Shown here piece by piece: positions 9,370 through 34,923 of a stretch of 64,000 bases of DNA. The position numbers and the translations under genes were made by a program. The number at the start of each line of letters is the position of its first letter. Position 1 is the first letter of the stretch. Source of the stretch: Caldilineaceae bacterium (GTDB lineage: Bacteria > Chloroflexota > Anaerolineae > Caldilineales > Caldilineaceae); NCBI GenBank assembly GCA_026708085.1, contig JAPOVP010000093.1, positions 1-64,000 on the forward strand. Reading direction: 5' to 3'. Under the pieces are notes generated by a model. The model saw only the letters and a list, made by a program, of their open reading frames with translations, was not told where the DNA came from and ran no database searches.

Positions 9370-10474
9370 GACCTCTAGACCATCGCCCTAGGATAAGCCG
9401 GACCTTCCGTCCTGGCCGCCTCATAGGTGGCCATCGCCACCTGGATCGTCTTCTTGGCGAACTCGGCGTCGAGGTCGGGCTGTCTATCCTCGATGATGCT
9501 GTCGATGAAGTCGCAGGCAGCTCCGTTGAACCCCTCGATAAAGTCCGAGGGAACCTCGATGCCTTCCGTCTCGGTCCCTTTTATCAGCAGGACCGGGGGG
9601 AAATCCAGCAGTTCAGCAATGCACCGCGTCACGTGGATGGAGCCCTTAGAGCCGTGTATCTCCATGTAGTCGTCGCCCGCGAAGTACTTGGTGCGGACCG
9701 TCATATGCGGCGCGTAGACGTAGTCGCACATCCCCAAACAGTCCATTCCTTCGAACTTCCAGATGAGCGCCGTCGGCATCTCCATGAAGTGCTCCCGGGT
9801 CTTGCCGACAATCCCGAAGACCTTCTCGATATCTCCGACCCACTTCATGGCGGTCGCGAATTTGTGCACACCGTCTTCATACACGATACCCAAGGGGCTC
9901 AGCCTGGGATCGTTGCGCCAGACGAACGCTTCAGGGTCTGTGTCCACCACGTTCCCCTCAGCCTGTCCACCGATTACGGTGTGAAACCGGACCAGGGACG
10001 GCTCGCCTATGGCTCCGGCGTCGAGTAGCTCCTTGGCCTTGAGGATGGGTGGGTAATAGATGCAGTTCTCGGTCATCCGGAACTTCGTCTTGGCGCTTCT
10101 GGCCGCCGCCACCATCACGTCCGCCTCCGCGACCGACGTGCACATCGGCTTCTGGCAGGATACGTGCTTGCCGGCGTCCAGACCGTCGACCGTCATGGTC
10201 GCGTGGTGTTGCGGAGGCGTCAGTAGCTCGACGGCATCGACATTGGGGTCGTTGAGGACCTGCTCGTAGTCCGTGTAGATCCTTGGCGAGATGCCCCACT
10301 GCTTCGCCCGAGCTTCGGCCCGGCCGGGGGCACTATCGCACAGCGCGATGACCTCGCAGTTAGGGTGCTGGAGGTAACCGGGGACGTTGAGCTGCGAGAT
10401 GTTTCCGCACCCGACGATAGCGATTCTCACCTTGTCCATGGCGCCTACCTTTCTATCTAGCCGGTATTTCCCAG
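9370..10474. repeat. 1.1-kb tandem duplication unit 1
   Basis: Matches 10480-11584 at constant offset 1110; only a few substitutions, all near the ends. Confidence 0.95.
9375..10439 (-). CDS. Gfo/Idh/MocA family oxidoreductase, tandem copy 1
   Basis: N-terminal Rossmann VRIAIVGCGNISQLNVPGYLQH; CQKPMCTSVAEAD. Confidence 0.9.
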   Translation of the reverse strand: MDKVRIAIVGCGNISQLNVPGYLQHPNCEVIALCDSAPGRAEARAKQWGISPRIYTDYEQVLNDPNVDAVELLTPPQHHATMTVDGLDAGKHVSCQKPMCTSVAEADVMVAAARSAKTKFRMTENCIYYPPILKAKELLDAGAIGEPSLVRFHTVIGGQAEGNVVDTDPEAFVWRNDPRLSPLGIVYEDGVHKFATAMKWVGDIEKVFGIVGKTREHFMEMPTALIWKFEGMDCLGMCDYVYAPHMTVRTKYFAGDDYMEIHGSKGSIHVTRCIAELLDFPPVLLIKGTETEGIEVPSDFIEGFNGAACDFIDSIIEDRQPDLDAEFAKKTIQVAMATYEAARTEGPAYPRAMV

Positions 10475-10479
10475 CCGGA

Positions 10480-11584
10480 GACCTCTAGACCATCGCCCTG
10501 GGATAAGCCGGACCTTCCGTCCTGGCCGCCTCGTAGGTGGCCATCGCCACCTGGATCGTCTTCTTGGCGAACTCGGCGTCAAGGTCGGGCTGTCTATCCT
10601 CGATGATGCTGTCGATGAAGTCGCAGGCAGCTCCGTTGAACCCCTCGATAAAGTCCGAGGGAACCTCGATGCCTTCCGTCTCGGTCCCTTTTATCAGCAG
10701 GACCGGGGGGAAATCCAGCAGTTCAGCAATGCACCGCGTCACGTGGATGGAGCCCTTAGAGCCGTGTATCTCCATGTAGTCGTCGCCCGCGAAGTACTTG
10801 GTGCGGACCGTCATATGCGGCGCGTAGACGTAGTCGCACATCCCCAAACAGTCCATTCCTTCGAACTTCCAGATGAGCGCCGTCGGCATCTCCATGAAGT
10901 GCTCCCGGGTCTTGCCGACAATCCCGAAGACCTTCTCGATATCTCCGACCCACTTCATGGCGGTCGCGAATTTGTGCACACCGTCTTCATACACGATACC
11001 CAAGGGGCTCAGCCTGGGATCGTTGCGCCAGACGAACGCTTCAGGGTCTGTGTCCACCACGTTCCCCTCAGCCTGTCCACCGATTACGGTGTGAAACCGG
11101 ACCAGGGACGGCTCGCCTATGGCTCCGGCGTCGAGTAGCTCCTTGGCCTTGAGGATGGGTGGGTAATAGATGCAGTTCTCGGTCATCCGGAACTTCGTCT
11201 TGGCGCTTCTGGCCGCCGCCACCATCACGTCCGCCTCCGCGACCGACGTGCACATCGGCTTCTGGCAGGATACGTGCTTGCCGGCGTCCAGACCGTCGAC
11301 CGTCATGGTCGCGTGGTGTTGCGGAGGCGTCAGTAGCTCGACGGCATCGACATTGGGGTCGTTGAGGACCTGCTCGTAGTCCGTGTAGATCCTTGGCGAG
11401 ATGCCCCACTGCTTCGCCCGAGCTTCGGCCCGGCCGGGGGCACTATCGCACAGCGCGATGACCTCGCAGTTAGGGTGCTGGAGGTAACCGGGGACGTTGA
11501 GCTGCGAGATGTTTCCGCACCCGACGATAGCGATTCTCACCTTGTCCATGGCGCCTACCTTTCTATCTGGCCGCTACTTCCCAG
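10480..11584. repeat. 1.1-kb tandem duplication unit 2
   Basis: See unit 1. Confidence 0.95.
10485..11549 (-). CDS. Gfo/Idh/MocA family oxidoreductase, tandem copy 2 (354 aa, identical protein)
   Basis: Protein in the ORF track identical to 9375-10439. Confidence 0.9.
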   Translation of the reverse strand: MDKVRIAIVGCGNISQLNVPGYLQHPNCEVIALCDSAPGRAEARAKQWGISPRIYTDYEQVLNDPNVDAVELLTPPQHHATMTVDGLDAGKHVSCQKPMCTSVAEADVMVAAARSAKTKFRMTENCIYYPPILKAKELLDAGAIGEPSLVRFHTVIGGQAEGNVVDTDPEAFVWRNDPRLSPLGIVYEDGVHKFATAMKWVGDIEKVFGIVGKTREHFMEMPTALIWKFEGMDCLGMCDYVYAPHMTVRTKYFAGDDYMEIHGSKGSIHVTRCIAELLDFPPVLLIKGTETEGIEVPSDFIEGFNGAACDFIDSIIEDRQPDLDAEFAKKTIQVAMATYEAARTEGPAYPRAMV

Positions 11585-11682
11585 ATTTAATTGATTTTCC
11601 AGAACATGCGCCCTCAACGAATCGGAATGTCCGCAGATCATCGGGTTAAAATGTCCCCGACGAACGGATAAGGCAATGGGCA

Positions 11683-13155
11683 CTACGTCTGAGAGAATGG
11701 GTCCTCAACCAGGGGCCATATGTTGCGTTCAATATGCTTAAAGGGGAACTTGGTCAGGTCAGGGTTTATCGCTCCGGGCGTTGCCAGGTAGAGCACCTCA
11801 GCGGCTAGCGGGGCAAAGGCTGCATAGAAGTGCTGGCTCCCCTTGACCACCAGGATGTGCTTCTGCCGCGGGTCGATCCCCACCGTGCTAAAGCATTCCG
11901 GGCTGAAGACCTGCTCGCGGATCGAGTTGAGAACGATGTCGATGCCCTTGACGTGTACGGCTACCGTATCGCCCAACCGCACTGTCGCTCTACCATCCTC
12001 AGGACCGAAGGACTGGGTGGCGTTGGGCTTCACCCCAGTCACCTTCACGCTTAGGTCTAGCGGGTCACCGGACATCGGCCCCATCTTCCCGCCGATCCGC
12101 AGATCGAGTTGCGCGCCCACCCCGGCCTCCATGGCTAGCGACACCGCAATCGGGTCCCATATGCAGGCCAGCGCTGCCTCCCCGATGCCGCGCTCCAACA
12201 GGGCCTTCAAGACGAAGGTGGAGTCACTGGGTGCGCCGCCACCGGCATTGTCCGCAGTATCGGCCATCACGACTGGAGAACGATCGATCTCCAACGCTCG
12301 ATTCAACCCCTCGTCGATGCTCAGAAAGTTGGGACGCAGTGCTTCGCGCATCTCAAAAAGCTCACGTCCCAGTTCCTGGGCCAGGCGCTCCCCGTACTCG
12401 GGACGGCCGTCGGTAACGACCAGGATCTTGGTACCCATGTCCGGCACGTCGCCCCAGGGAAAACCGTGCACCACTGAGACCGACAGCACCCCATCCCTCC
12501 CCTCCAGCCCCTTGATCCGGTCCACGTAGCTCCGCATGGGCTCCCTGGTCGTGTGGTAGATGCCAATCATGCGGCAGTCAAACACAGATATCGCAGGCCT
12601 GATCTTGCCCTCGGCGGCGCTGGCGATTATATCGAACAACTCCTCGGCACGCTCGGCAGCGTCGATGTGCGGGTATTCTTTGAAAGTGATTAGCGCCGTG
12701 GCGTTGTTCACCATCTTCTGCGATAGGTGGCAATGCGGGTCCAGCTCCACGCCAATCGGCACGCCCGGTCCGACAATCTCCCGGACCCGTGCTATCAGGT
12801 CCCCTTCGCAGTCGTCGTAACCATCAGCAACCATAGCTCCATGCAGGTTGAGCAGTACCATATCCACCGGCAACGCGGCGCGCAGATCATCCAGGATCTC
12901 GTCCCGGAACGATTCATACACCGCACGTACGGTCAGGCCCGCGGGCTGGGCGAAAGTGGCGAGACTCTCTGCGACCGACCAGCCACGCTGTTGTGCCCGC
13001 TCTCGAGCAATCGCCAATGGTCGGGAATATACGGACGGCTCATCTCCGTGATCCCCGCCGCGCACCAGAAACGTCTCGGCGAAATTGGCATGGCCGGTGG
13101 GAATCGGCGAGAAAGTGTTGGTTTCGGTTCCTAGAAAGGTGGTAAACAGTTTCAT
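11683..13155 (-). CDS. M81 family (MlrC-like) metallopeptidase 1
   Basis: LNLHGAMVADGYDDCEGDLIARVRE, ELDPHCHLSQKM, YPHIDAAERAEEL; MlrC_C-like C-terminus. Confidence 0.88.
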   Translation of the reverse strand: MKLFTTFLGTETNTFSPIPTGHANFAETFLVRGGDHGDEPSVYSRPLAIARERAQQRGWSVAESLATFAQPAGLTVRAVYESFRDEILDDLRAALPVDMVLLNLHGAMVADGYDDCEGDLIARVREIVGPGVPIGVELDPHCHLSQKMVNNATALITFKEYPHIDAAERAEELFDIIASAAEGKIRPAISVFDCRMIGIYHTTREPMRSYVDRIKGLEGRDGVLSVSVVHGFPWGDVPDMGTKILVVTDGRPEYGERLAQELGRELFEMREALRPNFLSIDEGLNRALEIDRSPVVMADTADNAGGGAPSDSTFVLKALLERGIGEAALACIWDPIAVSLAMEAGVGAQLDLRIGGKMGPMSGDPLDLSVKVTGVKPNATQSFGPEDGRATVRLGDTVAVHVKGIDIVLNSIREQVFSPECFSTVGIDPRQKHILVVKGSQHFYAAFAPLAAEVLYLATPGAINPDLTKFPFKHIERNIWPLVEDPFSQT

Positions 13156-13185
13156 GACCCGTCGCCTCCTTTCTACATTCCTTCT

Positions 13186-14859
13186 TCACCCCGGCACCCA
13201 CGCTCGCGGCGCAATGCCATCGATATGGGTTTTGACATCGACCACCGCCGGTTTGCCCGCTGCAAATGCCTGATCGAGCGCACCCGAAATTTCGCTCGGC
13301 TTGTTGACCGTAATGCCGAAACAGCCCATTGATTCGGCCACGTCGGCAAAATGGGTGTCTGGGAAGAGCCACAGTTTATCCGAGCCGGGGGATTGACCGC
13401 CGTAGACTCGCTCCATGCCGTGCTTTTCCTGGTTCAGCGAGTGGTTGTTGTTGACCACCGTAACCGTGTTGATCCCATTGTTCAGGGCGGTATCCAATTC
13501 CGAAAGATGATACCAGATGCCTCCATCTCCGGTGAAACAGAGCACAGGTCGGTCCGGTTGGGCACATTTTGCGCCCATCGCCGCCGGCAGAGCCCAACCT
13601 AGCGAACCCGCGCAGCGAATGTAGCTCTGGTCGGGATGTTTCAGATCGATCATGGTGCCGGTCCAGATGCCTGCATGGCCCGTGTCGGAGACGAGAATGA
13701 CGTCGGAGGGCAGATAGTCGGTCAGTTCTTTGCAGAGGCGTTCTGGCCGCATGGGCTCGACCTCCGAGTTAGCCAGGTCGCGAACGCTCTCCTTCCAGCT
13801 CTGGACCAGCTCTAGTACCCTACTGGTCCACTCTGTACGCGCCGGGACGGTTTCGGCCTGCACAAGCATTCTACGCAGAGAGTTTCTGACGTCGCCGTGC
13901 ATGCCTACCTGGATTGAGTAGTTGCGCCCCAGTTCCTCCGGATTGATATCGAGCTGGATGATCGGCGTGCCTTGAGGCGGAATCTGGTAATCGTAGGTCA
14001 CCTGACCGCCGGTGTGGCTGCCGACAAAAAAGACCAGATCGGCCTCGCACAGGACTTGGTTTGCGCAAGCGCGTGAGTACAAACCAGGGACACCCACCGC
14101 CAGCGGGTGGTCAGCGGGAAACATAGCTTTGGCATTCAGCGAGGTGGCTAGCGGGATAGAAAGCTTCTCGGCCAAGGCGAGTAGCTCTGCCTTGGCGCCC
14201 GACGCGGTCACACCACCGCCGGCCACGATGACGGGCCGTTTGGCCCGGTTGAGCAGTTGCAGCGCGGCAGTCACTTTTTCCAGTTCGGCTTCAGGTCGGA
14301 ACGGGGGTACCTGGGTAAAGGTTTCTTCAATGATGACCTCTGCGTCGGCTTCCTGATCGACGACCGCCTGCCCGGCATGCCCCTCCAGATCCAGGTGAAC
14401 CGGTCCAGGTGTGCCCGAGGTGGATGAGCGGAAGGCCTGACGCAAATAGATGGGCAGTTGATCGGGACTGGTGACCAAGGCACTGTATTTAGTGACGGCC
14501 GAAAACGGATTCACGTGATCAACTTCCTGATAGGCGTGACGCTGCTGGTTGCTCTGGAACACCCTTCCGGTCAGGGCAATGACGGGTGAACAAGCCAAGT
14601 AGGCATCCTGCAGCCCTGCCGCCAGATTAACCGCGCCCACCGACTGGGCCATACAAAGGCTGGGACCGCGCTTCACGCGGGCGTAGGCATCGGCCATATA
14701 CGCGGCGGCCTTCTCGCCATGGGTCTGGATCCGCTGAATTCCCAGCTTTTCCATTTCCATCAAGGCTCTGGCAGCGACATTGGTCACAAAAAAGACGTGC
14801 TCTATCCCGTATCCGACGATTGTTTCGGCTATGAATCGAGCTCCGGTCATTCTTGTCAT
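13186..14859 (-). CDS. Acetolactate synthase-like TPP-dependent enzyme
   Basis: THGEKAAAYMADAYAR, central nucleotide-binding-like domain, TPP motif TGDGGIWYHLSELDTALNNGINTVTVVNNN. Confidence 0.88.
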   Translation of the reverse strand: MTRMTGARFIAETIVGYGIEHVFFVTNVAARALMEMEKLGIQRIQTHGEKAAAYMADAYARVKRGPSLCMAQSVGAVNLAAGLQDAYLACSPVIALTGRVFQSNQQRHAYQEVDHVNPFSAVTKYSALVTSPDQLPIYLRQAFRSSTSGTPGPVHLDLEGHAGQAVVDQEADAEVIIEETFTQVPPFRPEAELEKVTAALQLLNRAKRPVIVAGGGVTASGAKAELLALAEKLSIPLATSLNAKAMFPADHPLAVGVPGLYSRACANQVLCEADLVFFVGSHTGGQVTYDYQIPPQGTPIIQLDINPEELGRNYSIQVGMHGDVRNSLRRMLVQAETVPARTEWTSRVLELVQSWKESVRDLANSEVEPMRPERLCKELTDYLPSDVILVSDTGHAGIWTGTMIDLKHPDQSYIRCAGSLGWALPAAMGAKCAQPDRPVLCFTGDGGIWYHLSELDTALNNGINTVTVVNNNHSLNQEKHGMERVYGGQSPGSDKLWLFPDTHFADVAESMGCFGITVNKPSEISGALDQAFAAGKPAVVDVKTHIDGIAPRAWVPG

Positions 14860-14951
14860 TTTTCCTCACAGTCAAAGTGAGCTGGGGACGGATCCTGTTG
14901 CTCAAATATATCCTTGTTGCGGCAAAACGCGCCCTGGACTGATCAACTGGG

Positions 14952-15914
14952 TTAGCTGAACCTCGGTATGACCTCCTCGGCAAATAGTATGGCGCTGTCT
15001 GTCCTGGGGAAGTCCGCAAATTGTAGGATGATGTGCTGGACGCCAAGATCCGCGAAGTCTCTTAGTTGCGCACTCACCTCATCCGGGGTACCCACAACCG
15101 AACCCCAGCCTATCGGGTAACCGAAACCGGGATCGTAGTGCAAGCTTGCTTCTGCGATTTGCTGAGCCTCCTCGCTTGTCGGAGCCACCGCAACGCAGGC
15201 CGACGCCCACGTCTTGACAATGGAGTCATAGTCGCGTCCCACGGCCTCACAGTGCCCGCGCAGTAGGTCTAGCCGTTCACTGTAGCCTTCCAGTGGGCTG
15301 TGCCAGTTCCACCAATCGGCGTATTGGGCCGCATAACGTAGCGTCAGTTTTGGGCCACCCCCGCCGATGCACAGAGGGATAGGCGGGTCCGGTTTGGGTT
15401 CGCAGATCGCGTCTTGAACGTGGTAAAAGCGCCCTTGAAAAGTGGTACTTGGCTGGGTCCACATCAGGCGGAGGATCTGGGCTGCCTCCCCCATCCGATG
15501 AATGCGCGTTGCATCGGATGGAAAGTCATAGCCGTAGGCGAGGTGTTCGTCTTCTACCCCCCCTGCGCCGAGCCCTAGGATGAATCGCCCACCCGCAAGC
15601 GTTTGCAATGTAGCCGCCATCTTGGCCAGCAAAGCGGGCTGGCGAAACGACTGGTTCACTACCATACTGCCAAAGAGCAACTCAGGGTATTTGCCCGCCA
15701 GGTGCGCTAGCATGGTCCAACACTCCAAGAGGTCCCTCATCGGATCCAGCGCCTCATGCCATGCCACAAAAAAATGGTCGCCCACCCAGGCTGATGCAAA
15801 TCGCCCATGGATGGCGTCCAGATATGCGTATATCTGATCTCTGAAAATGCCCCCACGGCTTCCATCGAGTGGAAAAGTCGGGACCCTCCAGCCAAATTTG
15901 ACGCTACCATTCAT
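14952..15914 (-). CDS. LLM-class flavin-dependent oxidoreductase
   Basis: RFILGLGAGGVEDEHLAYG, TRIHRMGEAAQILRLMWTQPSTTFQGRFYHVQDA; start placed at ATG 15914 downstream of GGAGGTGCAGAG. Confidence 0.85.
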   Translation of the reverse strand: MNGSVKFGWRVPTFPLDGSRGGIFRDQIYAYLDAIHGRFASAWVGDHFFVAWHEALDPMRDLLECWTMLAHLAGKYPELLFGSMVVNQSFRQPALLAKMAATLQTLAGGRFILGLGAGGVEDEHLAYGYDFPSDATRIHRMGEAAQILRLMWTQPSTTFQGRFYHVQDAICEPKPDPPIPLCIGGGGPKLTLRYAAQYADWWNWHSPLEGYSERLDLLRGHCEAVGRDYDSIVKTWASACVAVAPTSEEAQQIAEASLHYDPGFGYPIGWGSVVGTPDEVSAQLRDFADLGVQHIILQFADFPRTDSAILFAEEVIPRFS

Positions 15915-16294
15915 CTCTGCACCTCCTGTCAAGAACGGGTCAGAATGTCCGTAGATCATCTTCCTTGGATAGGACTTCATCCCCTGGCCAATTGAGACAA
16001 AAAATATTTGAGTAATGGTCAGCCGGAGGGCGCGAGGCTAAAGCCGCTGCGCTTCTAAAGCCGTCGCGCTGAAAGGGCGACGGACGCGCCGGTGGTAAGA
16101 CAACGGACAAGCGCCCTGAAGACGGCCCTAAACGGTTGATTTTCCAGCCCGAACGGGCTGTGCTCTCTCAGCACGGCGACTTCAGCCCCGTGCTGCCCGC
16201 TGGACTCTATTTCAGAATTAATAATTTAGAGGGTAACACTAAGGCATTGAATATCTAGTGCGCAAACGCTCTTGGATGTAGTAGAGTAAGAGAT

Positions 16295-16464
16295 ATGAGC
16301 GAGCACATACAGTTTGACCGAGAGCAACTCAAGCGACTAGACCAAGAGAGCCTGTTTGAGCAGATTCTGGTTATGCAGCAGCAGATGGCGACCCAACAGG
16401 CGTTTATCTAGCAGATTCAGGATCAACTGGCGAAGGACAGTCACAACAGCGGCAAGCCGCCTAA
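16295..16464 (+). pseudogene. IS66-family transposase N-terminal remnant with in-frame stop
   Basis: MSEHIQFDREQLKRLDQESLFEQILVMQQQMATQQAFI*QIQDQLAKDSHNSGKPP resembles the IS66 TnpC N-terminus; TAG at 16409-16411. Confidence 0.65.
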
Positions 16465-16473
16465 AGTTCATAA

Positions 16474-16502
16474 GCCAAGAGGTCTTCCCGGCTTCTCCCG
16501 TA
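16474..16502 (-). repeat. Putative IS200/IS605-type right-end remnant, family C, copy 1 (partial)
   Basis: Minus strand TACGGGAGAAGCCGGGAAGACCTCTTGGCTTATG; shared with 17610, 22970, 38751 and 43500 regions. Confidence 0.45.
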
Positions 16503-16573
16503 ATCCTGATTGCGGTGATCGTCTGGTCGCTGGTGTACACCAGGCGGCGGCAGGTGCGCTGACCTGCTCTTTT

Positions 16574-17641
16574 CTATACCGCCTGGGGCGCATCGACGTA
16601 GGTCGGCACGCCCTCCTCGGCAAAGATGCGGTCGATCTCGGCCCGCTCTTCGTCCGTAAGCTTCCAATCGACAGCAGCCACGTTCTCCTCGAGTTCCGAC
16701 CGGTTGCGTATGCCGACCAGCGCCACCGACAGCGCAGGGTGGCCCAGCACCCATGCGATAGCCAGTTGCGCCACGGACCTCCCAGCACGCCCGGCGAGCG
16801 TTTTCAATCGCTCGGTACAGCGCAGCTCCTTGAGAAAGTGCTCCTGCTCAAAGAGCGGCAGATTGAACGCGTCGCCTGCTGAGCGCCAGTCCCCTTCCTC
16901 AAACGTCGTGTCCGGCGTAAACACGCCGGTGAGCAAGCCAAATCCCAGCGTGCCGTAGGCCATAAACCCGATCCCCTGCTCCAGACAGTAGGGCAGCACC
17001 TGCGCCTCCATGCGCCGGTCGAACAGGTGATATCCGACCTGATTGGCCGCCAGGTGCCCGTGTCGCTCGCACTCTTCCATCATCTCCACCGTAAAGTTGG
17101 AGACCCCATAGTGACGGATCTTGCCCGCCGTTTTCAACTCTTCCAGTGCGCCCATCGTTTCGGCGAACGGGGTGTCGTGGTCTGGCCAGTGGATCAGCAG
17201 CAGGTCGATCCAGTCGGTATTCAGGCGCTGGAGGCAGCCTTCGGTTCTGGCCAGCACCCATTCACGCGTCGAGTCCCGCGCGTGGGTGCCGTCGACTTTG
17301 AAGCCCACCTTGGTCACCAGGACGACCTCCTTGCGCCGGGTGCCCAGCGCGCGGCCCAGGATCTCTTCCGAGTGGTAGGGGCCGTAGACTTCTGCAGTGT
17401 CGAACAGCGTGATACCGTTGTCGATCGCGGCGCCGACGGCCGCGCTGGCCTCATCTACATCGATGTAGCCGTATTCGGTCGTGCTCATCTCCCACGTGCC
17501 GAACCCCAACGCCGAACTGATCAGATCGGTGTCGCCAAATCGCCGTTGCTCCATCATGTACGTCCTGTTCTTGTGCGTGACAGCGGCGCGTACGCCTCGC
17601 GCGCCTTTATGGGAGAAGCCGGCATGAGCACTGGAAGGCAA
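16574..17641 (-). CDS. Aldo/keto reductase
   Basis: LGFGTWEMS, ITLFDTAEVYGPYHSEEILGRAL, WPDHDTPFAETMGALEELKTAGKIRHYGVSNF; real start probably MMEQRRFGD. Confidence 0.9.
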   Translation of the reverse strand: MPSSAHAGFSHKGARGVRAAVTHKNRTYMMEQRRFGDTDLISSALGFGTWEMSTTEYGYIDVDEASAAVGAAIDNGITLFDTAEVYGPYHSEEILGRALGTRRKEVVLVTKVGFKVDGTHARDSTREWVLARTEGCLQRLNTDWIDLLLIHWPDHDTPFAETMGALEELKTAGKIRHYGVSNFTVEMMEECERHGHLAANQVGYHLFDRRMEAQVLPYCLEQGIGFMAYGTLGFGLLTGVFTPDTTFEEGDWRSAGDAFNLPLFEQEHFLKELRCTERLKTLAGRAGRSVAQLAIAWVLGHPALSVALVGIRNRSELEENVAAVDWKLTDEERAEIDRIFAEEGVPTYVDAPQAV

Positions 17642-17720
17642 AGAATATTCGCCCCTCAGCCTGGGCTGAGGGGCGAATATCCTGGCTAAAGCCCAAGGGG
17701 CCTTCCCGGCTTCTTCCGTA
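17610..17720 (-). repeat. Family C remnant copy 2, containing a perfect 17-bp-stem palindrome
   Basis: Ends gggagaagccgg / ccggcttcttccgta; stem ATATTCGCCCCTCAGCC (17645-17661) / GGCTGAGGGGCGAATAT (17664-17680). Confidence 0.55.
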
Positions 17721-17737
17721 AGTCGAATCGTTCTGGC

Positions 17738-19366
17738 CTACTCCTCCTCAATATACCATAAGTGGATCTCGCGCCAGAGCCTATTGGTGTCAACCGCATC
17801 GAGCGACTGCCCCTTGACCTTGGCGTTGAAGATGGCGGGCCAATGGGTGAAAAACAATTCAATCACCGGCGCTTCGTCCATAATCATCGCCTGGATCTCG
17901 TTGTAGATGGGCTGGCGCTGCTCCACAGAGGCGTAGGAGAGTCCCTCCTCGATCAGCGCGTCCAGTTTCGGATTTGAGATGCAGGGAAAGTTGTTGGCGC
18001 CTTCGGAGTGCATCATCCAGTGGGGATCCGGGTCTATAGCGCCGTGTTCAAAGGCGATCATAGCGGCATCCATCTCGCACTTGCGCATACCATCCAGGAT
18101 AGCCGCCACGGGCGTCTCCACGAGGAAGATCTCGACGCCTATGTCGGCCCACAACTGCTGCGCTAACTCGATGACCGGAATGAACTGCTGGTTACCGGCG
18201 CCCACATGGACATCGAAGGAGAGCCTCTCACCCTCCTTCTCGCGTACCCCGTCGCCGTCCTCGTCCACCCAACCTGCCTCGTCCAGCAGCGCCATGGCCT
18301 TTTCCGGGTCGTACTCGTACCGTGGGATGTTCGGGTTGTAGTAGTCCGGGTATATGGGGGACAGGTTAGAATGGGCTACCTGGGCTTGGCCGAACCAGAG
18401 GTCGTCGATGATCCTTTGGCGGTCCAGGCCCCAGTACAATGCCTGGCGCACCCGCTTGTCCGACAACTGCGGTATGGTGTTGTTGAGCGGAATCAGAAAG
18501 GGCCCCGCCCCAGCTTGAGAAATGCTCGTAAACCTCGGGTCGTTGGCCAGACGCACGTTGTCCTCCATCAGCAATGGCCAGGCGGTCCCGTCGGCGTCGC
18601 CCGACTCAAGAGCGATGGTGCGCACCGAAGCCTCGGGCACGACGTCGACCCGCAAAAAGTCGAGATTGGGCCGCCCCCGAAAGTGGTCGTCGAACGCCTC
18701 CAGCAGCGTGAACTGCGACGGGTGCCATTCCACGAGCTTAAAGGAGCCGGTACCGATGGGGGCCGTCGCGTACACTTCTTCGCCCACCTCCGCGTGATAG
18801 TCCGACTGTACAATACGCAGAATCGCCCCTAGTACGAGAAAGGCGGCATCTACCTGCACCATGTTGATGACGGCGGTATAGTCATCCACACACTCGACGG
18901 AATCGATTTTTGACAAGACGCCGACCACTGGCGCCGCGTTTTCCGGGTCACGGTAGAAGTCAAACGTATACTTGACGTCCCTGCACGTGAAATCGGCGTC
19001 ATTGTGAAACTTGACGCCCTCACGCAGCGGGAAGGTGTAGGTCAGGCCGTCTTCGGAGATGTCGTAGGACTCGGCCAGCACCGGTACGACCGTATTTGAA
19101 GCGTCTATCTCCACCAGCCCGTTGTGGATTTGCATGAGCGCCGGCCGGATTGCGCTTGGGATGGCGCCGAGTCCAGGGCTGAGGCTGAAGGCGTCGTGGT
19201 GGCCCATCAGACGGAGAGTTCCACCCTGAGGTGGCCCCGTGGATGCCGCCTCCTCTTCGACCATCTCTTCCTCAACGGCCGTCGGCTGCTGAACGACGCA
19301 GCCCGCCAACATTAGAACGCCAATAACCAGCAACACCAACGACTTTTGCCAAATTGTGATAGACAT
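17738..19366 (-). CDS. ABC transporter substrate-binding lipoprotein, family 5 (Dpp/Opp type)
   Basis: Lipobox LMLAGC, REGVKFHNDADFTCRDVKYTFDFYRD, ALYWGLDRQRII. Confidence 0.92.
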   Translation of the reverse strand: MSITIWQKSLVLLVIGVLMLAGCVVQQPTAVEEEMVEEEAASTGPPQGGTLRLMGHHDAFSLSPGLGAIPSAIRPALMQIHNGLVEIDASNTVVPVLAESYDISEDGLTYTFPLREGVKFHNDADFTCRDVKYTFDFYRDPENAAPVVGVLSKIDSVECVDDYTAVINMVQVDAAFLVLGAILRIVQSDYHAEVGEEVYATAPIGTGSFKLVEWHPSQFTLLEAFDDHFRGRPNLDFLRVDVVPEASVRTIALESGDADGTAWPLLMEDNVRLANDPRFTSISQAGAGPFLIPLNNTIPQLSDKRVRQALYWGLDRQRIIDDLWFGQAQVAHSNLSPIYPDYYNPNIPRYEYDPEKAMALLDEAGWVDEDGDGVREKEGERLSFDVHVGAGNQQFIPVIELAQQLWADIGVEIFLVETPVAAILDGMRKCEMDAAMIAFEHGAIDPDPHWMMHSEGANNFPCISNPKLDALIEEGLSYASVEQRQPIYNEIQAMIMDEAPVIELFFTHWPAIFNAKVKGQSLDAVDTNRLWREIHLWYIEEE

Positions 19367-19616: not shown

Positions 19617-21158
19617 TTACCCTTCTACCTGGATGAATACCTGATCGCCGCGCAGCTCAACAGGGTACGTTTTCAAGTCTTTAGTGACGGGTGCAGACAA
19701 TGCTTTGCCTGTTTCGATATCGAAGCTCCCTAGATGCAGTGGGCATTCGATACAGCCATCGAAGACAAAGCCCTCGGCTAATTTGGTTTCTTCATGGGTG
19801 CATAAACCATCGCTGGCAAAGAAGGCGTGAGGACCCAAACGATAAATGGCGTAAGTGTGGTCATTGTAGTCAAAGCCAAGCACGTCTTCCACTTCGATAT
19901 CTGAAACGTTACAAACCTCGATCCAACTGCTTTCTTCGGCATCTGTGTTTACAGCCGTTGCTGTGCGTATCTCTTCAATCGATGTGTCCACAGACTCAGC
20001 GGGTTCACGAGTGCCGTCTCTCACGTTTGCTACCGGTTCGTCGCTTAACGCGCTGCTTGACGTGACAACGCCGCCTACGGGGATGTCGAACGCTTCAACC
20101 GTTGTGCCGGCGTCAGGAATAGGGCGCCTTATATAATAATCCGGGTCTTTGGTCGCTTGCATGTACAAGGCCGGGATCATCTCCTTGTAGGCTTGCCACA
20201 GGCTCCGATACGGCGGCGGTGTTTGTGATTTCATCAGCTCGTGCAAGTCAGCCAAAGCATGGTAGGGAACCATGGGTATGACGTGGTGTTCGATATGATA
20301 ATTCATGTTCATATACAGATAGCGGAACACCGGATTCAGATAGATCGTGCGCGTATTTTCGCGGTGATCATACGTATCTTCACCCAAACCGGCGTGTTGC
20401 GTTACGGCGAGCATTTGCTCCACAAATGCACCGTAAAAGCGGGGAAGCCACACGAACATCATCGGCAGAAAGCTGCCGACCGCCACCGCCCACACCGCAA
20501 AAACCGCCACAATAGCTAGATAAATCCGGCTAGTCCAGATCATTTTGGGTAGCTCAGAGGCGGGTGCAAAGCTACGGACATCGTCGCCGATTTGCCCGGC
20601 AGCATGTCTGATCACTCGCTGTACTTCTAGAACGCCCCGCAGAAAGAAAAAGTCCATCGCAAAGATGAGCAGATCGGCTGGCCGTTGAACCTGGATTTCG
20701 GGGTCATAACCCACGAGATAGGTGTTGGTATGATGGCGGGCATGGCTCCAACGCCAGAGGTTAGCTTCACGTATGGTCATGAAGGAGCTGATATGGTAAA
20801 AGAGCTCGTTTAGCCAGCGGGTGCGAAACACGGTGCCATGGCCGCACTCGTGCCATCGCGCGTCGGATGAGGAGTAGAGCGTCCCATAGACGAAAAAGGC
20901 AAGAATCGCCCACCAGGTGCCCCAGGAGATCCAGGCCAGGTAGCCGCTCACCCCAAGCAGGATGATCCACAGGCCAAAATCGAGGAGACCGTAGCGGTTG
21001 GTGCGCTGCATCAATGCTTTGAGTTGGTCGCGGGGGATATCGGGGGACCACCACGCTTGTTCGACCTTTTCCTCGATGGCGCCATCGTCGAGGGGGATAT
21101 CCGTTCTGTATGTGTTGATCAGACGATAGTCCCGTTCGGGGAAGTTGCGTATTGCCAA
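19617..21158 (-). CDS. Membrane fatty-acid-desaturase-like oxygenase fused to a C-terminal Rieske [2Fe-2S] domain
   Basis: His boxes HECGHGT, HARHHTN, NYHIEHH; C-terminal CTH-x16-CPLH Rieske signature. Confidence 0.92.
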   Translation of the reverse strand: MAIRNFPERDYRLINTYRTDIPLDDGAIEEKVEQAWWSPDIPRDQLKALMQRTNRYGLLDFGLWIILLGVSGYLAWISWGTWWAILAFFVYGTLYSSSDARWHECGHGTVFRTRWLNELFYHISSFMTIREANLWRWSHARHHTNTYLVGYDPEIQVQRPADLLIFAMDFFFLRGVLEVQRVIRHAAGQIGDDVRSFAPASELPKMIWTSRIYLAIVAVFAVWAVAVGSFLPMMFVWLPRFYGAFVEQMLAVTQHAGLGEDTYDHRENTRTIYLNPVFRYLYMNMNYHIEHHVIPMVPYHALADLHELMKSQTPPPYRSLWQAYKEMIPALYMQATKDPDYYIRRPIPDAGTTVEAFDIPVGGVVTSSSALSDEPVANVRDGTREPAESVDTSIEEIRTATAVNTDAEESSWIEVCNVSDIEVEDVLGFDYNDHTYAIYRLGPHAFFASDGLCTHEETKLAEGFVFDGCIECPLHLGSFDIETGKALSAPVTKDLKTYPVELRGDQVFIQVEG

Positions 21159-21198: not shown

Positions 21199-21217
21199 TG
21201 TGGAATCAGATTCCGCA
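21199..21217 (-). promoter_or_regulatory. Palindromic operator candidate (IclR-type) before the desaturase-Rieske gene
   Basis: TGTGGAATCAGATTCCGCA; near-identical to 47537-47555. Confidence 0.7.
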
Positions 21218-21220
21218 TCC

Positions 21221-21249
21221 ACCATACTATATATAATCTTCCCTGTCAA
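21221..21249 (-). promoter_or_regulatory. Sigma70-type promoter
   Basis: Minus strand TTGACA (21249-21244) - 17 nt - TATGGT (21226-21221), immediately upstream of the operator. Confidence 0.7.
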
Positions 21250-25983: not shown

Positions 25984-26898
25984 TTAGGTGATGTCCTTCT
26001 GACGTGGATCGAGGGCATCGCGCAGTCCATCGCCGAGCAGGTTGAAGGCCAGCACGGTCAGCACGATCATAATTCCCGGAGCCATGGCGATGTGCGGAAA
26101 TAGAAGAATAAAAGCCCGGCCGTCGGACAAGGTGCCGCCCCAGGAGGGGGTAGGGGGCTGAATTCCCAGGCCGAGGAAGGACAGGGCGGCCTCGAGGATG
26201 ATGATGGTGCCCACACCCAAGGTGACGAGCACGATCACCGGCGCCAACACATTGGGCAGGATGTGGCGGAAGATGATGCGCCGGTCGCTGGCACCGATAG
26301 CTAGCGCTGCCACGACGAACTCCCGTCTCTTCAAGCTCAGCACCTGAGCGCGCACCACCCGCGCGTATATTGCCCAACTCGTGACGCCGATGACGACGAC
26401 GGTCGTGACCAGGCTGGGCCCCACTATCGACGCCAGCAAGATCAGCAGCGCGATGATAGGGAAGGCCATCAGGGTGTCCGTCAGGCGGGACAGCAGCGAG
26501 TCGGGCCAGCCGCTGAAATAGCCCGCGGTTACCCCGACTATCACGCCGATGATGACAGCGATGCTCGACGCCCCCAGGCCGACGATCAGCGCCACGCGAG
26601 AACCATAGATCACGCGGCTGAATAGATCACGCCCCACGTGGTCGAAGCCCATCAGATGCTCACTGGACGGACCGACACCCCGTTTACCCGAATAGATTTC
26701 TAGCGGGTCGTGCGGGACGATCGTATCCGCAAAGACGGCCATCAAACACAGCAAGATAATAAAGGCCCCGGCGATCACCGCCATGCCGTTGGCCTTGAAG
26801 CGGCGCCAGGCGCGCGACCTCTCGGAGCGGCGCGGCAGCTCCTCCGCCACGTGTACGATCTGTTCCTTTGAAGTTTCGACTTCCATGGACTTGCCCAT
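25984..26898 (-). CDS. ABC transporter permease, DppC/OppC type
   Basis: DHVGRDLFSRVIYGSRVALIVGLGASSIAVIIGVIVG; ALSFLGLGIQPPTPSWG. Confidence 0.93.
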   Translation of the reverse strand: MGKSMEVETSKEQIVHVAEELPRRSERSRAWRRFKANGMAVIAGAFIILLCLMAVFADTIVPHDPLEIYSGKRGVGPSSEHLMGFDHVGRDLFSRVIYGSRVALIVGLGASSIAVIIGVIVGVTAGYFSGWPDSLLSRLTDTLMAFPIIALLILLASIVGPSLVTTVVVIGVTSWAIYARVVRAQVLSLKRREFVVAALAIGASDRRIIFRHILPNVLAPVIVLVTLGVGTIIILEAALSFLGLGIQPPTPSWGGTLSDGRAFILLFPHIAMAPGIMIVLTVLAFNLLGDGLRDALDPRQKDIT

Positions 26899-26916
26899 GG
26901 CTGCTAGAAGGCTGCG

Positions 26917-27855
26917 TTATTCGATGCGTATCCGTGGGTCAATCAGGGCATAGGTCAGATCGGTCAGCAGGTTTACCACGACAACGATAACGGCCAGCAG
27001 AAACACGATGGATTGCACGACCTGGTAGTCCAGGTGCAACACCGAGTCGGTGAAGAGGCGGCCGATGCCTGGCAGGGCGAACACCGTCTCCACGATGATG
27101 GTGCCGCTGAGGATATAGGCAAATTGGACACCGATCACCGTGACCACTGGCAGCAGCGCGTTGCGTATGGCGTGGGTCCCGATCACGCCCCGCTCAGCCA
27201 GCCCTTTGGCTCGCGCCGTGCGCACGTAATCCTCCCCCAATTCCTCGATCAGGCTGCCGCGCGTGACACGCATGATGACTGCCATCTGCATTGTGGCTAT
27301 CACCATGACGGGCATGATATAGCCCTGCCAGGAGTGCAGACCAAAAGGGGGCAGCCATTTGAGTACCAGGGAAAAGAGCACGATCAACATCAGCGCAACC
27401 CAAAAGTTGGGCAAGGCGACGCCCAGCGTTGAAAAAATGGTGGCCGCGTAGTCAAAGAGGGAGTTGCGCTTTGTCGCCGCCATTATGCCCATCGGGATGG
27501 CCAGGGCAAGCGCGATGATCAACCCGGCCGCGCTTATATTGAACGTCACCGGAATGGCTTCAAAGATCATCTCGCGTACGGGCACGCCGGGCCGGAAGAT
27601 GGACTGGCCAAAGTTGCCGGTAAACATATTCTTGACCCAGAGCAGATACTGGACGTGCCAGGGATCATCCAAGCCCCACTTGCGGTGAATGGCTTCGATC
27701 TGCTCCTCGGTCATCCGTATCCCTCCCCCTCCCTCCCCCAGCAAGATCATTACCGGGTCGCCCGGCAGCAGGCGCATAATGAGAAACGTCGCCACGCTGA
27801 TCAATAACAGGACGACCAGCCCCTCGGCCAAACGTACAACGGTATATCGGGCCAT
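26917..27855 (-). CDS. ABC transporter permease, DppB/OppB type
   Basis: MRLLPGDPV, YVRTARAKGLAERGVIGTHAIRNALLPVVT. Confidence 0.93.
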   Translation of the reverse strand: MARYTVVRLAEGLVVLLLISVATFLIMRLLPGDPVMILLGEGGGGIRMTEEQIEAIHRKWGLDDPWHVQYLLWVKNMFTGNFGQSIFRPGVPVREMIFEAIPVTFNISAAGLIIALALAIPMGIMAATKRNSLFDYAATIFSTLGVALPNFWVALMLIVLFSLVLKWLPPFGLHSWQGYIMPVMVIATMQMAVIMRVTRGSLIEELGEDYVRTARAKGLAERGVIGTHAIRNALLPVVTVIGVQFAYILSGTIIVETVFALPGIGRLFTDSVLHLDYQVVQSIVFLLAVIVVVVNLLTDLTYALIDPRIRIE

Positions 27856-27892
27856 AGTATTATCCCGCCGCTGAATTGTCTCGATAACTTCT

Positions 27893-27923
27893 AGTTTGGG
27901 GACGGCCCGGCCATCCCCAAACT
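27893..27923. terminator. Perfect 10-bp hairpin between the two permease pairs (terminator/processing candidate)
   Basis: agtttgggga cggcccggcca tccccaaact; no convincing U-tract. Confidence 0.4.
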
Positions 27924-28046
27924 CTTTCTGACTTCAACCTGCTTCACGCCTCGTGATAGACCATTTCGTCGTCCAGCGCTTCCTCTGACTTATCAACTGT
28001 TTATTCAGGGAGTACCACCCGATAAATTGGCTTGATCCTATAGCCT

Positions 28047-28955
28047 TCAAACCTGCTTTAGCCTGGGATCAAGAGCATCTCTTAGCCTGTCTCCAAAGAA
28101 ATTCAGAAGAAGGATGACGACGAAGATCAATACACCAGGGGCCAGGGTGTACCAAGGAGCCAGGTAAAGATACCTTTGGGCATCTCGCAACATGGTTCCC
28201 CAGGTGGCCGTGGGTGGCTGAATGCCCAGTCCTAGATAGCTTAGGCCCGCCTCGATCGAAATGGCCAGGGCCATCCCCAAGGTAATTTGAACTAGAATCG
28301 GTGCCATAGTATTGGGCAGAATGGTCCTGAACATGATTCTGGAGCTGCCAGCCCCGCAAGCCCGACTGGCAACGACGAACTCTACATCCTTAAGGACAAG
28401 GACACTGCCACGAACCAATCGAGCGAAGCGAGGGGTGAAGAGGAAGCCAATCGAAACGATGATTGAGAAGGGAGATGCACCCAAGGCGGCCACGATCAGT
28501 ATGGTGAAGATCAACGAAGGAAACGCTAACACCGCGTCCATAACTCTCATAGTGAGCCCGTCGGTCAACCCCCCATACAGCCCGGATATTAAGCCCAGAG
28601 GGATGCCAATAGCAAACGCCAATCCTACCGATGCCGAACTAATGACGATAGCCACCCGAGTACCAAAAATGATTCTGCTGAAAATGTCCCGGCCAAATTC
28701 GTCTGTTCCCAGTATGAATTCCAACGAGGGTGGAGATAATGCCAGTTCTGGATGGATCTCGTTCGGATCGTGCGGGCTCAAGACCCCAGGAAATAAAGTG
28801 CTCAGAAGGACTAGAAGTAATATCGTTCCAGCCAGAAGCACCGGCTTGCTCGTCTTACGCAACTGCCGTATCTTGGCCAAGGGCCCTCGTTTAATCGTCT
28901 CGGGTGGTTGCTCGAGAGCAGCTATTTGACCCACTGAGTCTGTCCTTTCTTCCAA
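28047..28955 (-). CDS. ABC transporter permease, DppC/OppC type
   Basis: TDEFGRDIFSRIIFGTRVAIVISSASVG; GLSYLGLGIQPPTATWG. Confidence 0.93.
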   Translation of the reverse strand: MEERTDSVGQIAALEQPPETIKRGPLAKIRQLRKTSKPVLLAGTILLLVLLSTLFPGVLSPHDPNEIHPELALSPPSLEFILGTDEFGRDIFSRIIFGTRVAIVISSASVGLAFAIGIPLGLISGLYGGLTDGLTMRVMDAVLAFPSLIFTILIVAALGASPFSIIVSIGFLFTPRFARLVRGSVLVLKDVEFVVASRACGAGSSRIMFRTILPNTMAPILVQITLGMALAISIEAGLSYLGLGIQPPTATWGTMLRDAQRYLYLAPWYTLAPGVLIFVVILLLNFFGDRLRDALDPRLKQV

Positions 28956-28974
28956 TTAGACTTATCAACTTGCC

Positions 28975-29979
28975 TTACTTTGAAAACTGAGCCCGAATGC
29001 GGGGATTCAACAGCCCATAACTAATATCAACTAGCAGGTTGACCATGGTGAATCCGAATGCGGCCAAAAGGACTATCCCCTGCACCATCGGATAGTCCCT
29101 TTGAAAAATCGACTGTACCAGCAGCCAGCCCAACCCAGACCAGCCGAAGACCTGTTCAATGATCACCGCACCACTGAGCAGTCCCCCGACGACAATTCCT
29201 ATGATGGTTAGCAACGATATGAGGGAGTTCTTCAGCGCATGCCTGAGGATTATCTGGCTTTGTGTAAGCCCCTTGGCAGAGGCTGTCCGGATGTAATCCT
29301 GCTGGAGTACCTCCAACATGTCAGCCCGCAAAAACCTCACGAAGTAAGCCGTCAAGTACAACCCCAAAGTCAAGCTAGGCAAAAAAGCCCGTTTCAGGTT
29401 CTCCACAGGACTTTCCCATAGTGGAATGTAGCCAGAGACTGGAAACCAGCCCAGCCTAACCCCAAAAATTAGAATGAGCAACAATCCTAGCCAAAAGACC
29501 GGTATGGCGAATCCGGCGGCGGAGAAGGCACCTACCGCGTAATCAAACATTGAACGATGCTTAACAGCGGCCAAAATGCCGGCAGGTATGGCTACGATCA
29601 TGGCCATAATCACCGCGAGTACGAGTAATTCTAAGGTAGCAGGAAGCCGGCCCAAGATGATGGGTAACACGGGCAGCTCGTTTCGAACCGAAAAGCCCAG
29701 ATTACCCCCAAGGATACCCCTGATCCAGTAGAGGTATTGAATGTGAATTGGTCTGTCCAGTCCCATCTCACGCCGCAGTTCCTCTAACTTCTCCTCGTAA
29801 AGCGACTTTTGGTAGGCCGATTCTCCGGCACCTCCTATAACGTAGCCAGCCGCATCCGCCCCAAGCATAAGCATGGCCGGGTCTCCAGGTGCCAAGCGCA
29901 TGGCCACAAAGACGACGATGGAAACGAAAATCAGGACAACTACAGAAGCTAATAATCTACGTACGATGAACAAGCCCAT
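28975..29979 (-). CDS. ABC transporter permease, DppB/OppB type
   Basis: MRLAPGDPAMLMLG, DYIRTASAKGLTQSQIILRHALKNSLISLLT. Confidence 0.93.
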   Translation of the reverse strand: MGLFIVRRLLASVVVLIFVSIVVFVAMRLAPGDPAMLMLGADAAGYVIGGAGESAYQKSLYEEKLEELRREMGLDRPIHIQYLYWIRGILGGNLGFSVRNELPVLPIILGRLPATLELLVLAVIMAMIVAIPAGILAAVKHRSMFDYAVGAFSAAGFAIPVFWLGLLLILIFGVRLGWFPVSGYIPLWESPVENLKRAFLPSLTLGLYLTAYFVRFLRADMLEVLQQDYIRTASAKGLTQSQIILRHALKNSLISLLTIIGIVVGGLLSGAVIIEQVFGWSGLGWLLVQSIFQRDYPMVQGIVLLAAFGFTMVNLLVDISYGLLNPRIRAQFSK

Positions 29980-30028
29980 GTTTGTCCCTTCGAGAAGACC
30001 ACGCTAATCCCTTTCCCCTGCAGCTGGG

Positions 30029-30946
30029 TCAATCTTCACCTGATAAGGCCTTACGAGGATTCTCCACAAGGAGGATATGAATCTGTTCCTGGCTCAGGCC
30101 CGCCTCTTGGAGCATTGGCACAAACTCTGTGAGAAGAAAATCGTAGCCTGTGCCGCCGTAGGCTTTTAGGTGTGACTTCCAACAAATATCGTGGGACAAG
30201 AGGAGATGCTCCAGGTAACCTCTCTGAATGAACTCCGTGACGAGTCCCAATCTCCTGTGGACATCCCAGCTATATCGTCCTCGAAACGTATCAAATTCCA
30301 CATAAGCCCCGCGCTTGGCCAGAGCCTGGTGATAATCTGGGTGAGGATAGCCATCGCAGTGCCCTACGATCACCCGTCGCAAATCTACCCCTTCCTCCTC
30401 TAGAAGGTCCAGTTGAGCCAGCCCCACCGGGCTGAGCACGGCATGAGTGGTGATCGTCAGGCCCGTTTGGCGATGCGCTCGGGCTGCCGCTCTTAGGGAT
30501 CTTTCCTCTGCTGGAGAAATGAAATGCTTATCCGACCCAACTTCCCCAATGATTCCAGCCCGCACGCCGGTATCGCCCACTCCGTCGTTGATCTCAGCCA
30601 CAATCTCGGCTGCGATCTCATCTACGGTGCTCTCGTACAGCGGACGGTCAAAGAAGGATTCCCGATACCAGCCACAGCCCATCACAATATGCAGTCCCGT
30701 CTCTTGTGAAATATGCTGGAGTGTACGCGGGTCCCGCCCCAGCCCCCAGCTCGTCACGTCAACTACGGAGGTACCACCTGCGTCCTTGAATTGCTTTACC
30801 TCTTTGACAGCCAGCATTGCGTCGTCCACCAAGTGATCGAAGTTACCGGTCACCCGGCGCATATCGCACAGCAGATGCTCATGCGGAAGTACAATGCCCA
30901 ACGTTTCAGCTGCGACAGGACCCAACACTGTCATTACGTGTGACAT
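30029..30946 (-). CDS. Phosphotriesterase-family hydrolase 1
   Basis: LPHEHLLCDMR, GIIGEVGSDKHFISPAEERSLRAAARAHRQTGLTITTHA, VIVGHCDGYP. Confidence 0.88.
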   Translation of the reverse strand: MSHVMTVLGPVAAETLGIVLPHEHLLCDMRRVTGNFDHLVDDAMLAVKEVKQFKDAGGTSVVDVTSWGLGRDPRTLQHISQETGLHIVMGCGWYRESFFDRPLYESTVDEIAAEIVAEINDGVGDTGVRAGIIGEVGSDKHFISPAEERSLRAAARAHRQTGLTITTHAVLSPVGLAQLDLLEEEGVDLRRVIVGHCDGYPHPDYHQALAKRGAYVEFDTFRGRYSWDVHRRLGLVTEFIQRGYLEHLLLSHDICWKSHLKAYGGTGYDFLLTEFVPMLQEAGLSQEQIHILLVENPRKALSGED

Positions 30947-31036
30947 TGTTCCTCCTAACCCGGTTAAACAGGAATGGTTGAGGCCTCAATTGCAAGACCT
31001 TCTTGCCCAGTGTGCAACTAAATCAGGGGTTAGGCC

Positions 31037-32131
31037 CTAACGTGAGATCACAACCTGAGCTGGATTGATCGCCTGATAACTTGCCTTGTTACTGGTAATC
31101 TCAAAAGCTTCCGGAATCTTCTCCAACCCTTCAAGCAGGTGGGTGATCGTTGGCTTCACGCTCACCCGTTTAGAAGCGAGCAGATCGACGGTGTACGCCA
31201 ACCGCCCTGGTGCTTCGGGAAAGAGGTAAGCCAGACTCTTTTGTCGAAAGACATCGGTATCTAATTCCACGGGTTGACCGAAAAGTGCTACCTGAACGAT
31301 TTTTCCAAAATCTCTCATCACGTCAATGGTCTGAATTAGGGTGGAGCTACCGGCCAAGCCTTGTTCGGCACTGCCTCCCGCACACTCAAATGCCACCTCA
31401 ACTCCCGAACCATTCGTAATATCCAGTATGCTGCTTACCGGATCATCATTCTTGGCATTGATGGTGACATCAACGCCCAACTTTTTAGCTATACTCAATG
31501 TCTCATCACGGACGTCGACCCCGATGACACGCCTTGCTCCCGACACTTTAGCCACTTGAGCACAGTACAGTCCCATAACTCCCTGGCCGAATACGGCCAC
31601 AGTGTCCCCCATTTCGATCTTGGCGGTGGCCACCGCGGTAACAGCACCGCTAAGCGGCTGGATGATCGCTCCCTCATGATCATCGACACCCTGCGGGATT
31701 TTGACCAGAGTCTCTGCCGGCAGGACCAGGTATTCGGCAAAGGCACCCGGCAAATGCCGGCCAATCACGGGTCCCCGGCGGCAGCGGTGTTGTTGCCCGG
31801 TCAGGCACAGGGGGCATTCGTGGCATGGCACGTAGGAACCGGCTGCGACCCGGTCACCTGCCTTCAACCCTTTGACTCCATCGCCAACTCCTACAACCTC
31901 AGCACAAAACTCGTGCCCGAAAAGTTGGATGGGCGCTCTCTCCGCGATTAACTTGCGGATGGTTTTTACGCCTAGTGTAGGCAGACCCAAAGCTCTGATT
32001 GCCTCCGTAACGCTGGGCTGAACCACCTTCGTCTTGGCAATAACCCAACCGGGTTTCAGTTCTGGAACGGGTATCTCGTCAAGCCGCATGTCACCAAAAT
32101 CGTACCACCGCCAGGCTTTCATTGTCTTCAT
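31037..32131 (-). CDS. Zinc-dependent medium-chain alcohol dehydrogenase
   Basis: GHEFCAEVVGVGDGVKGLKAGDRV, CHECPLCLTGQQHRC, VAVFGQGVMGLYCAQVAK. Confidence 0.92.
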   Translation of the reverse strand: MKTMKAWRWYDFGDMRLDEIPVPELKPGWVIAKTKVVQPSVTEAIRALGLPTLGVKTIRKLIAERAPIQLFGHEFCAEVVGVGDGVKGLKAGDRVAAGSYVPCHECPLCLTGQQHRCRRGPVIGRHLPGAFAEYLVLPAETLVKIPQGVDDHEGAIIQPLSGAVTAVATAKIEMGDTVAVFGQGVMGLYCAQVAKVSGARRVIGVDVRDETLSIAKKLGVDVTINAKNDDPVSSILDITNGSGVEVAFECAGGSAEQGLAGSSTLIQTIDVMRDFGKIVQVALFGQPVELDTDVFRQKSLAYLFPEAPGRLAYTVDLLASKRVSVKPTITHLLEGLEKIPEAFEITSNKASYQAINPAQVVISR

Positions 32132-32154
32132 AGGGCTTTTTCTTCTCCTTTCTC

Positions 32155-33090: not shown

Positions 33091-33103
33091 TCTTAATCAC
33101 TCC

Positions 33104-33275
33104 TTTGCTAACGGACACACCTTATAGTTGACAAGATTCTGGCTGCAAATCTGGTTATTCAACGCCCAGACCGATGACGGCTGACCGCTGACCGCTGTAA
33201 AACGTAAGCTGATCGATGGTGACCGGTCGGGAGTCGATAAGCTCTGTCAAATTGGCAGGTTGTCCGTTAGCAAAA
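33104..33275. repeat. MITE-like element, family D, copy 1
   Basis: Ends tttgctaacggacacac... and ...tgtccgttagcaaa; interior matches the reverse complement of 36905-37069. Confidence 0.75.
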
Positions 33276-33415
33276 TATCTCCAACGAAAGGTGCTTTAAG
33301 CATTTACTGTGGAGTTCGACAGACCCTGCGGGCCAGCAACGAGAACAAAAATGGTTCTTCGGGGGACCTACCCCAACTATGCCAGCATAGTGTGCCCCCC
33401 GGTCTGCGACGCCAT

Positions 33416-34906: not shown

Positions 34907-34923
34907 CTCCTTTAAATAATTTC

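Follow-up and report, generated by a model that had tools for sequence, protein, structure and literature searches.

What purpose does one palindrome serve when it stands at two promoters 26 kb apart? In a 64,000-nucleotide stretch of DNA from a Caldilineaceae bacterium (hereafter the window), the palindrome TGCGGAATCWGATTCCRCA follows a sigma-70-type promoter both ahead of a gene for a desaturase-Rieske fusion protein and ahead of a gene for an IclR-family regulator. Judged from the sequence and from its relatives, the palindrome is highly likely to be the operator of this IclR protein, which would repress its own gene and the desaturase-Rieske gene and would thus switch a catabolic island of ~38 kb.

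Two promoters with a common palindrome

An earlier note on this DNA had described TTGACA-17-TATGGT and TTGACA-17-TACGAT, each with the palindrome downstream, on the minus strand at 21199-21249 and 47537-47588, respectively, and these sequences were present as written (Table 1). The note had also aligned the two cassettes over ~51 nt; they are indeed similar, but a gap-free fit fails on a 1-nt indel between the -10 hexamer and the palindrome, where the gap is 3 nt at the desaturase and 4 nt at the iclR locus. The two 17-nt spacers are identical at 13 of 17 positions (P ~3.5e-5 against shuffled spacers). Both promoters have hexamers near the sigma-70 consensus (10 of 12 bases) and score among the highest in their own stretches, promoter-like matches overall being no commoner than in shuffled sequence. 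At both loci, the palindrome runs from 4-5 nt to 22-23 nt past the -10 hexamer and should therefore cover the expected transcription start, in agreement with the earlier proposal. The next leftward gene is a complete CDS in each case, again as proposed, and no credible CDS, i.e., no divergent gene, was found on the plus strand beside either site.

Table 1 Features of the two cassettes and of the genes that follow them
Feature	Coordinates	Strand	Remarks
Desaturase-Rieske cassette	21249 to 21199	-	TTGACA-GGGAAGATTATATATAG-TATGGT-GGA-TGCGGAATCTGATTCCACA
Predicted promoter, desaturase-Rieske	21221..21249	-	TTGACA 21249-21244, 17 nt, TATGGT 21226-21221
Putative operator, desaturase-Rieske promoter	21199..21217	-	TGCGGAATCTGATTCCACA; 21-nt palindrome counting the outer A/T pair
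Desaturase-Rieske fusion gene	19617..21158	-	513 aa; TTG start; AAGGAG a few nt upstream
Genes after desaturase-Rieske, co-directional	9375..19366	-	SBP5, AKR, LLM, TPP enzyme, M81/MlrC-like, Gfo/Idh twice
iclR cassette	47588 to 47537	-	TTGACA-AGGCAGACTATCTATAG-TACGAT-GGCT-TGCGGAATCAGATTCCGCA
Predicted promoter, iclR	47560..47588	-	TTGACA 47588-47583, 17 nt, TACGAT 47565-47560
Putative operator, iclR promoter	47537..47555	-	TGCGGAATCAGATTCCGCA; perfect 21-nt palindrome with the outer T/A pair
Leader between putative operator and iclR ATG	47335..47536	-	~200 nt; long hairpin just before ATG
iclR-family regulator gene	46546..47334	-	262 aa from ATG 47334; proposed binder of both operators
Genes after iclR, co-directional, part 1	25984..46546	-	NAD epimerase, TPP enzyme, Gfo/Idh, DegT aminotransferase, M24, xylose-isomerase-like, SBP5
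Genes after iclR, co-directional, part 2	25984..46546	-	class III aminotransferase, M81, two phosphotriesterase-like, ADH, two Dpp/Opp permease pairs

The earlier note had called for a genome-wide scan, reasoning that many copies unrelated to promoters would mark the palindrome as the end of a repeat. In the window, these two sites were the only ones found with up to 3 mismatches, against 0.06 expected by chance. The relaxed pattern TGNGGAATCNGATTCCNCA was then used for the genome (6.24 Mb in 193 contigs, ~97% complete) and for its class. The exact pattern occurred at two places in the genome, namely the two promoters, with none at 1 mismatch and the next-best matches at 2 mismatches; the search of 396 genomes of the class gave 10 exact matches, every one of them at one or other of the two promoters and all within 6 genomes of a single genus. 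With just two copies in the genome, the end of a repeat or mobile element was rejected, and the site at iclR with one further copy 26 kb away, and none elsewhere in the genome at up to 1 mismatch, is the pattern looked for in a local IclR regulon of one or two nearby operons. Core matches with 2 mismatches within the island recur in relatives at the same places, but they lie within coding sequence and were rejected as extra weak operators.

Conservation of the sites and the iclR leader

Orthologs of the iclR gene (94-97% identical) were found in four congeners (G002, G005, G008, and G012), and those of the desaturase-Rieske gene (92-96% identical) in these four as well as in G015; in eleven other congeners searched, neither the orthologs nor the sites were found. 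In the alignments, each of the five species with iclR has the site 221-223 nt ahead of the ATG of that gene, and each of the six with desaturase-Rieske has it 58-59 nt ahead of the TTG. At iclR, 19 of 19 operator columns are invariant across the five species and fall within the longest invariant run of the upstream region; for comparison, the invariant share is 73% in the leader and 23% in the 100 columns that precede the -35 hexamer. Aligning the upstream regions of iclR orthologs, a check that had been suggested earlier, hence revealed a near-palindrome that every ortholog keeps ahead of the regulator's own gene, as is looked for in autoregulation.

The desaturase copy varies at the centre, at +7 and, in G012, at +2, with 2 substitutions in G012. 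The outer pair of the 21-nt form is T/A at iclR and A/T at the desaturase locus, with one exception (iclR of G005); being complementary at both loci, it keeps the symmetry even though the base differs. The hexamers of the desaturase promoter are largely kept in the six species. Since this intergenic region is ~83-91% identical in general, conservation alone is weak evidence for the desaturase operator. DNA conservation near iclR begins at ~47604, just upstream of the -35 hexamer, so that the iclR operator-promoter forms the edge of the conserved island. Outside the genus, the next best proteins among 61 relatives were at most 37% identical to IclR, and when patterns derived from the five orthologs were run against 84,980 species genomes, the four congeners alone were returned.

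The leader between the site and the iclR start codon is strongly structured. Its predicted fold has a z-score of -4.8 against shuffled sequences (-5.4, -2.8, -4.3, and -2.4 in the four congeners), and the part at 47335-47463 (minus strand) forms a long hairpin ending just before the ATG, with a similar fold in the four congeners. Over the whole structure, 15 changed cells of the alignment keep and 15 break pairs, and in the core hairpin 8 keep and 4 break them, which gives the structure no clear support. The window scan gave no Rfam match for the leader, which is present as a single copy in the genome. The hairpin may dampen iclR translation. A short ORF in the leader that would end at the iclR ATG was rejected from the alignment: in G005 its frame is soon closed by a stop codon, and 1-nt indels occur in the leader.

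The protein that would bind the palindrome

The gene that follows the site at 47537-47555 had been read as a complete IclR-family gene with the product 46546-47397. Family and completeness were borne out: the protein has an N-terminal HTH_IclR and a C-terminal IclR_C domain within the length range of the family (~250-280 aa), its Pfam matches (PF01614, 3.1e-39; PF09339, 1.4e-12) are both above the cut-off, and it matches the IclR structure 1MKM at 7e-34. The start, by contrast, is more likely to be ATG 47334 than TTG 47397, because 1-nt indels upstream in G005 and G008 would break the longer frame. The protein stayed below every NCBIfam cut-off for the named equivalogs BhcR, KdgR, AllR, IclR, and PcaR (bits/cut-off: BhcR 158/350, KdgR 134/275, PcaR 123/285, AllR 121/406, and IclR 115/380). 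BhcR, KdgR, and PcaR/PcaU are its best matches there, yet far under the equivalog or subfamily cut-offs.

The core of the operator, GGAATCNGATTCC, shows a GGAA-N5-TTCC layout. The Escherichia coli IclR operator at iclR/aceBAK (TGGAAATNATTTCCA) has the same half-sites and likewise overlaps the promoter, and it combines autoregulation with control of a catabolic operon, as is proposed here. However, the inner five bases are TCNGA here and ATNAT there, the outer arms are longer here (TGC/GCA), the genes are different, and the protein reaches only the above 115 bits (cut-off 380) against the IclR equivalog model. The group-2 motif of the family, TGRAACAN1-2TGTTYCA (KdgR, AllR, and IclR; PMC8222616), shares the box orientation, the odd-length centre, and the purine-rich left and pyrimidine-rich right arms. 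The GRAA/TTYC boxes match, whereas the inner CA/TG is TC/GA here, giving a GGAATC box instead of GRAACA, and the palindrome is extended to 19-21 nt. The last column of the published table, taken as group 2, gives 0% Chloroflexi (PMC8222616). Members of the family generally regulate themselves plus one or two adjacent operons, and most of their sites lie at -20 to -80; at ~212 nt from the start codon, the iclR operator is further away than most (PMC8222616).

Pfam scans of the island genes found no DNA-binding regulator besides the local IclR, and the sole other IclR gene found in the genome, G000:C78, encodes a protein 29% identical to it. The C78 upstream region, well conserved in six species, has no TGCGGAATC element. 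The promoter region of C78 itself, near 21171 (L102), is strongly conserved and, in relatives, carries an inverted repeat resembling GCGTATATGGTATACAAGATACGC; this is a candidate operator that differs in sequence from the one at iclR. That the local IclR binds both operators is a strong inference, because it is the sole regulator found among the scanned island genes, the C78 upstream region is without the motif, the core has IclR-type geometry, and self-regulation is known in the family. The operator common to iclR and desaturase-Rieske, as put forward in the earlier note, is supported by its uniqueness in the genome, by footprints in five and six species, by its co-occurrence with the genes, by the core geometry, and by the lack of the motif upstream of C78.

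In the proposed mechanism, an IclR dimer or tetramer would bind the palindrome over the transcription start of the two sigma-70-type promoters, blocking initiation at its own gene (autorepression) and at desaturase-Rieske. A ligand of the C-terminal effector domain, probably a substrate or intermediate of the island, would release both promoters, and the uptake and breakdown genes would be switched on together. Ligand-released repression is the most likely mode of control, because a protein at the palindrome should block initiation. IclR could instead bind as an activator or dual regulator, like PcaU and PobR, and the family does include both kinds (PMC8222616); this is nevertheless unlikely here, where the site begins 4-5 nt past the -10 hexamer and not ahead of the -35 hexamer and where hexamers this close to the consensus (10 of 12 bases) should not need activation.

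It is rather improbable that the operator belongs to another regulator, such as the genus-core IclR C78 or one encoded elsewhere, with iclR and desaturase-Rieske as its targets. The observation in its favour comes from G015 (a single-contig genome, 98% complete), which keeps the desaturase operator and has a C78-type regulator but no ortholog of the local IclR. The C78 type, however, occurs in most congeners, including those without the site, its own conserved upstream region lacks the element, and the presence of the site follows the island, whose one scanned regulator is the local IclR. What G015 retains is the desaturase half of the island; iclR and everything from that end as far as the second permease pair are absent. 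The simplest reading is a recent loss of the iclR half that left an orphan operator; use of the site by some other protein is a minor possibility. The weakened -35 of the G015 desaturase promoter, TTTACA, fits an orphaned operator, as one case. Integrase-core (rve) fragments lie near the G015 break (L095:9581-9988) and beyond the iclR end of the island (window 48303-48716, minus strand), which suggests that the island is mobile or deletion-prone.

The two segments might also be a duplicated cassette or the end of a mobile repeat with no regulatory meaning. Their likeness extends into the spacer and the hexamers, suggesting that one segment was copied from the other, and integrase-like fragments are found beyond the iclR end. 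This reading is nonetheless very doubtful: the genome holds two copies only, neither promoter region has another similar copy in it, and the palindrome has been retained in all relatives despite the divergence of spacers and flanks; besides, a duplicative origin would not exclude function. Scarcely credible is a role at the RNA level, with the palindrome forming a hairpin at which both transcripts begin. The palindrome lies at or near the transcript start, and a 9-bp stem is possible in the iclR leader. Against this, the folded minimum of the desaturase mRNA does not use the palindrome (z 0.11), variation falls at the centre and at single symmetric positions and disrupts pairing in most desaturase copies, and a start inside the palindrome would leave the transcript without part of one arm.

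The island downstream of the two promoters

Control by the local IclR would reach well beyond the two first genes. The desaturase-Rieske protein matches the Pfam families FA_desaturase (3e-32) and Rieske (5e-16), and its Rieske part matches the MocE-family ferredoxin model TIGR02377 at 1.7e-31 with 108.2 bits, below the cut-off of 136.15, which leaves the fusion outside that family as defined. It is best described, from these matches, as a MocD/MocE-like desaturase-type hydroxylase with its own Rieske ferredoxin. MocD and MocE act in rhizopine catabolism. They show the same pairing of a desaturase-type oxygenase with a MocE-family Rieske ferredoxin, but here both parts are fused in one chain. 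Elsewhere in the genome (G000:C153:5265-8113), two desaturase-Rieske paralogs with 63-65% identity in the desaturase part lie side by side; they have counterparts in most congeners and are without the operator.

The genes after iclR probably form one operon (operon 1), possibly with internal promoters; their order is kept in G002, G005, G008, and G012, and they are interrupted by gaps of 298, 884, and 326 nt. Those after desaturase-Rieske are a probable operon 2, syntenic in five congeners as far as covered, with gaps of 251 and 594 nt that leave room for internal promoters. The island, ~38 kb long and restricted to the genus, encodes proteins that are mostly 90-99% identical in congeners. It includes two SBP5 proteins and two pairs of Dpp/Opp permeases for transport, a luciferase-like monooxygenase (LLM), an aldo-keto reductase (AKR), acetolactate-synthase-like TPP enzymes, an amidase, and a PhyH oxygenase. 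From this gene content, it looks like a system that takes up and degrades an organic nitrogen or cyclitol-like compound.

The earlier note had predicted a two-target regulon controlling an oxygenase. Two target promoters are indeed what we found, but the prediction was too narrow: because a long run of island genes on the same strand follows each site, the regulon is probably the island and not one oxygenase. The extent of the transcripts and the nature of the effector are, like binding and repression, what we infer from this arrangement. The complete scenario, comprising one IclR repressor, two operators in 6.2 Mb, two long operons, the leader as a second control layer, and the loss of the iclR half in one relative, is tentative, and we would not count on all of its parts holding at once.

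Several further features were observed in and around the island. The Gfo/Idh genes at 9375-10439 and 10485-11549 (minus strand) are a tandem duplication with identical proteins and DNA differing at 3 of 1065 bases; in G015, a single place was seen to match. An extra xylose-isomerase-like gene, 56% identical to that at 38948-39760, lies in G008 and G012 (L091 near 15985 and L094 near 14471, respectively) between the genes for the TPP enzyme and the NAD epimerase, where the window has just a 183-nt gap. At 5417-5549 (minus strand), a group II intron domain was matched (RF02012, 64 bits).

Overall, the arrangement is well conserved and very probably of a known kind: an autoregulatory IclR operator with a second copy at another promoter, through which a catabolic island is probably controlled. 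As regulation, this is the standard IclR arrangement and an ordinary type of switch. It nevertheless provides a specific, testable predicted operator and regulon for a regulator of an uncultivated genus of Caldilineaceae (Chloroflexota), in which few transcription-factor sites are known. Furthermore, it marks the ~38-kb island as one regulated unit, and the effector of IclR would therefore point to the island's substrate.
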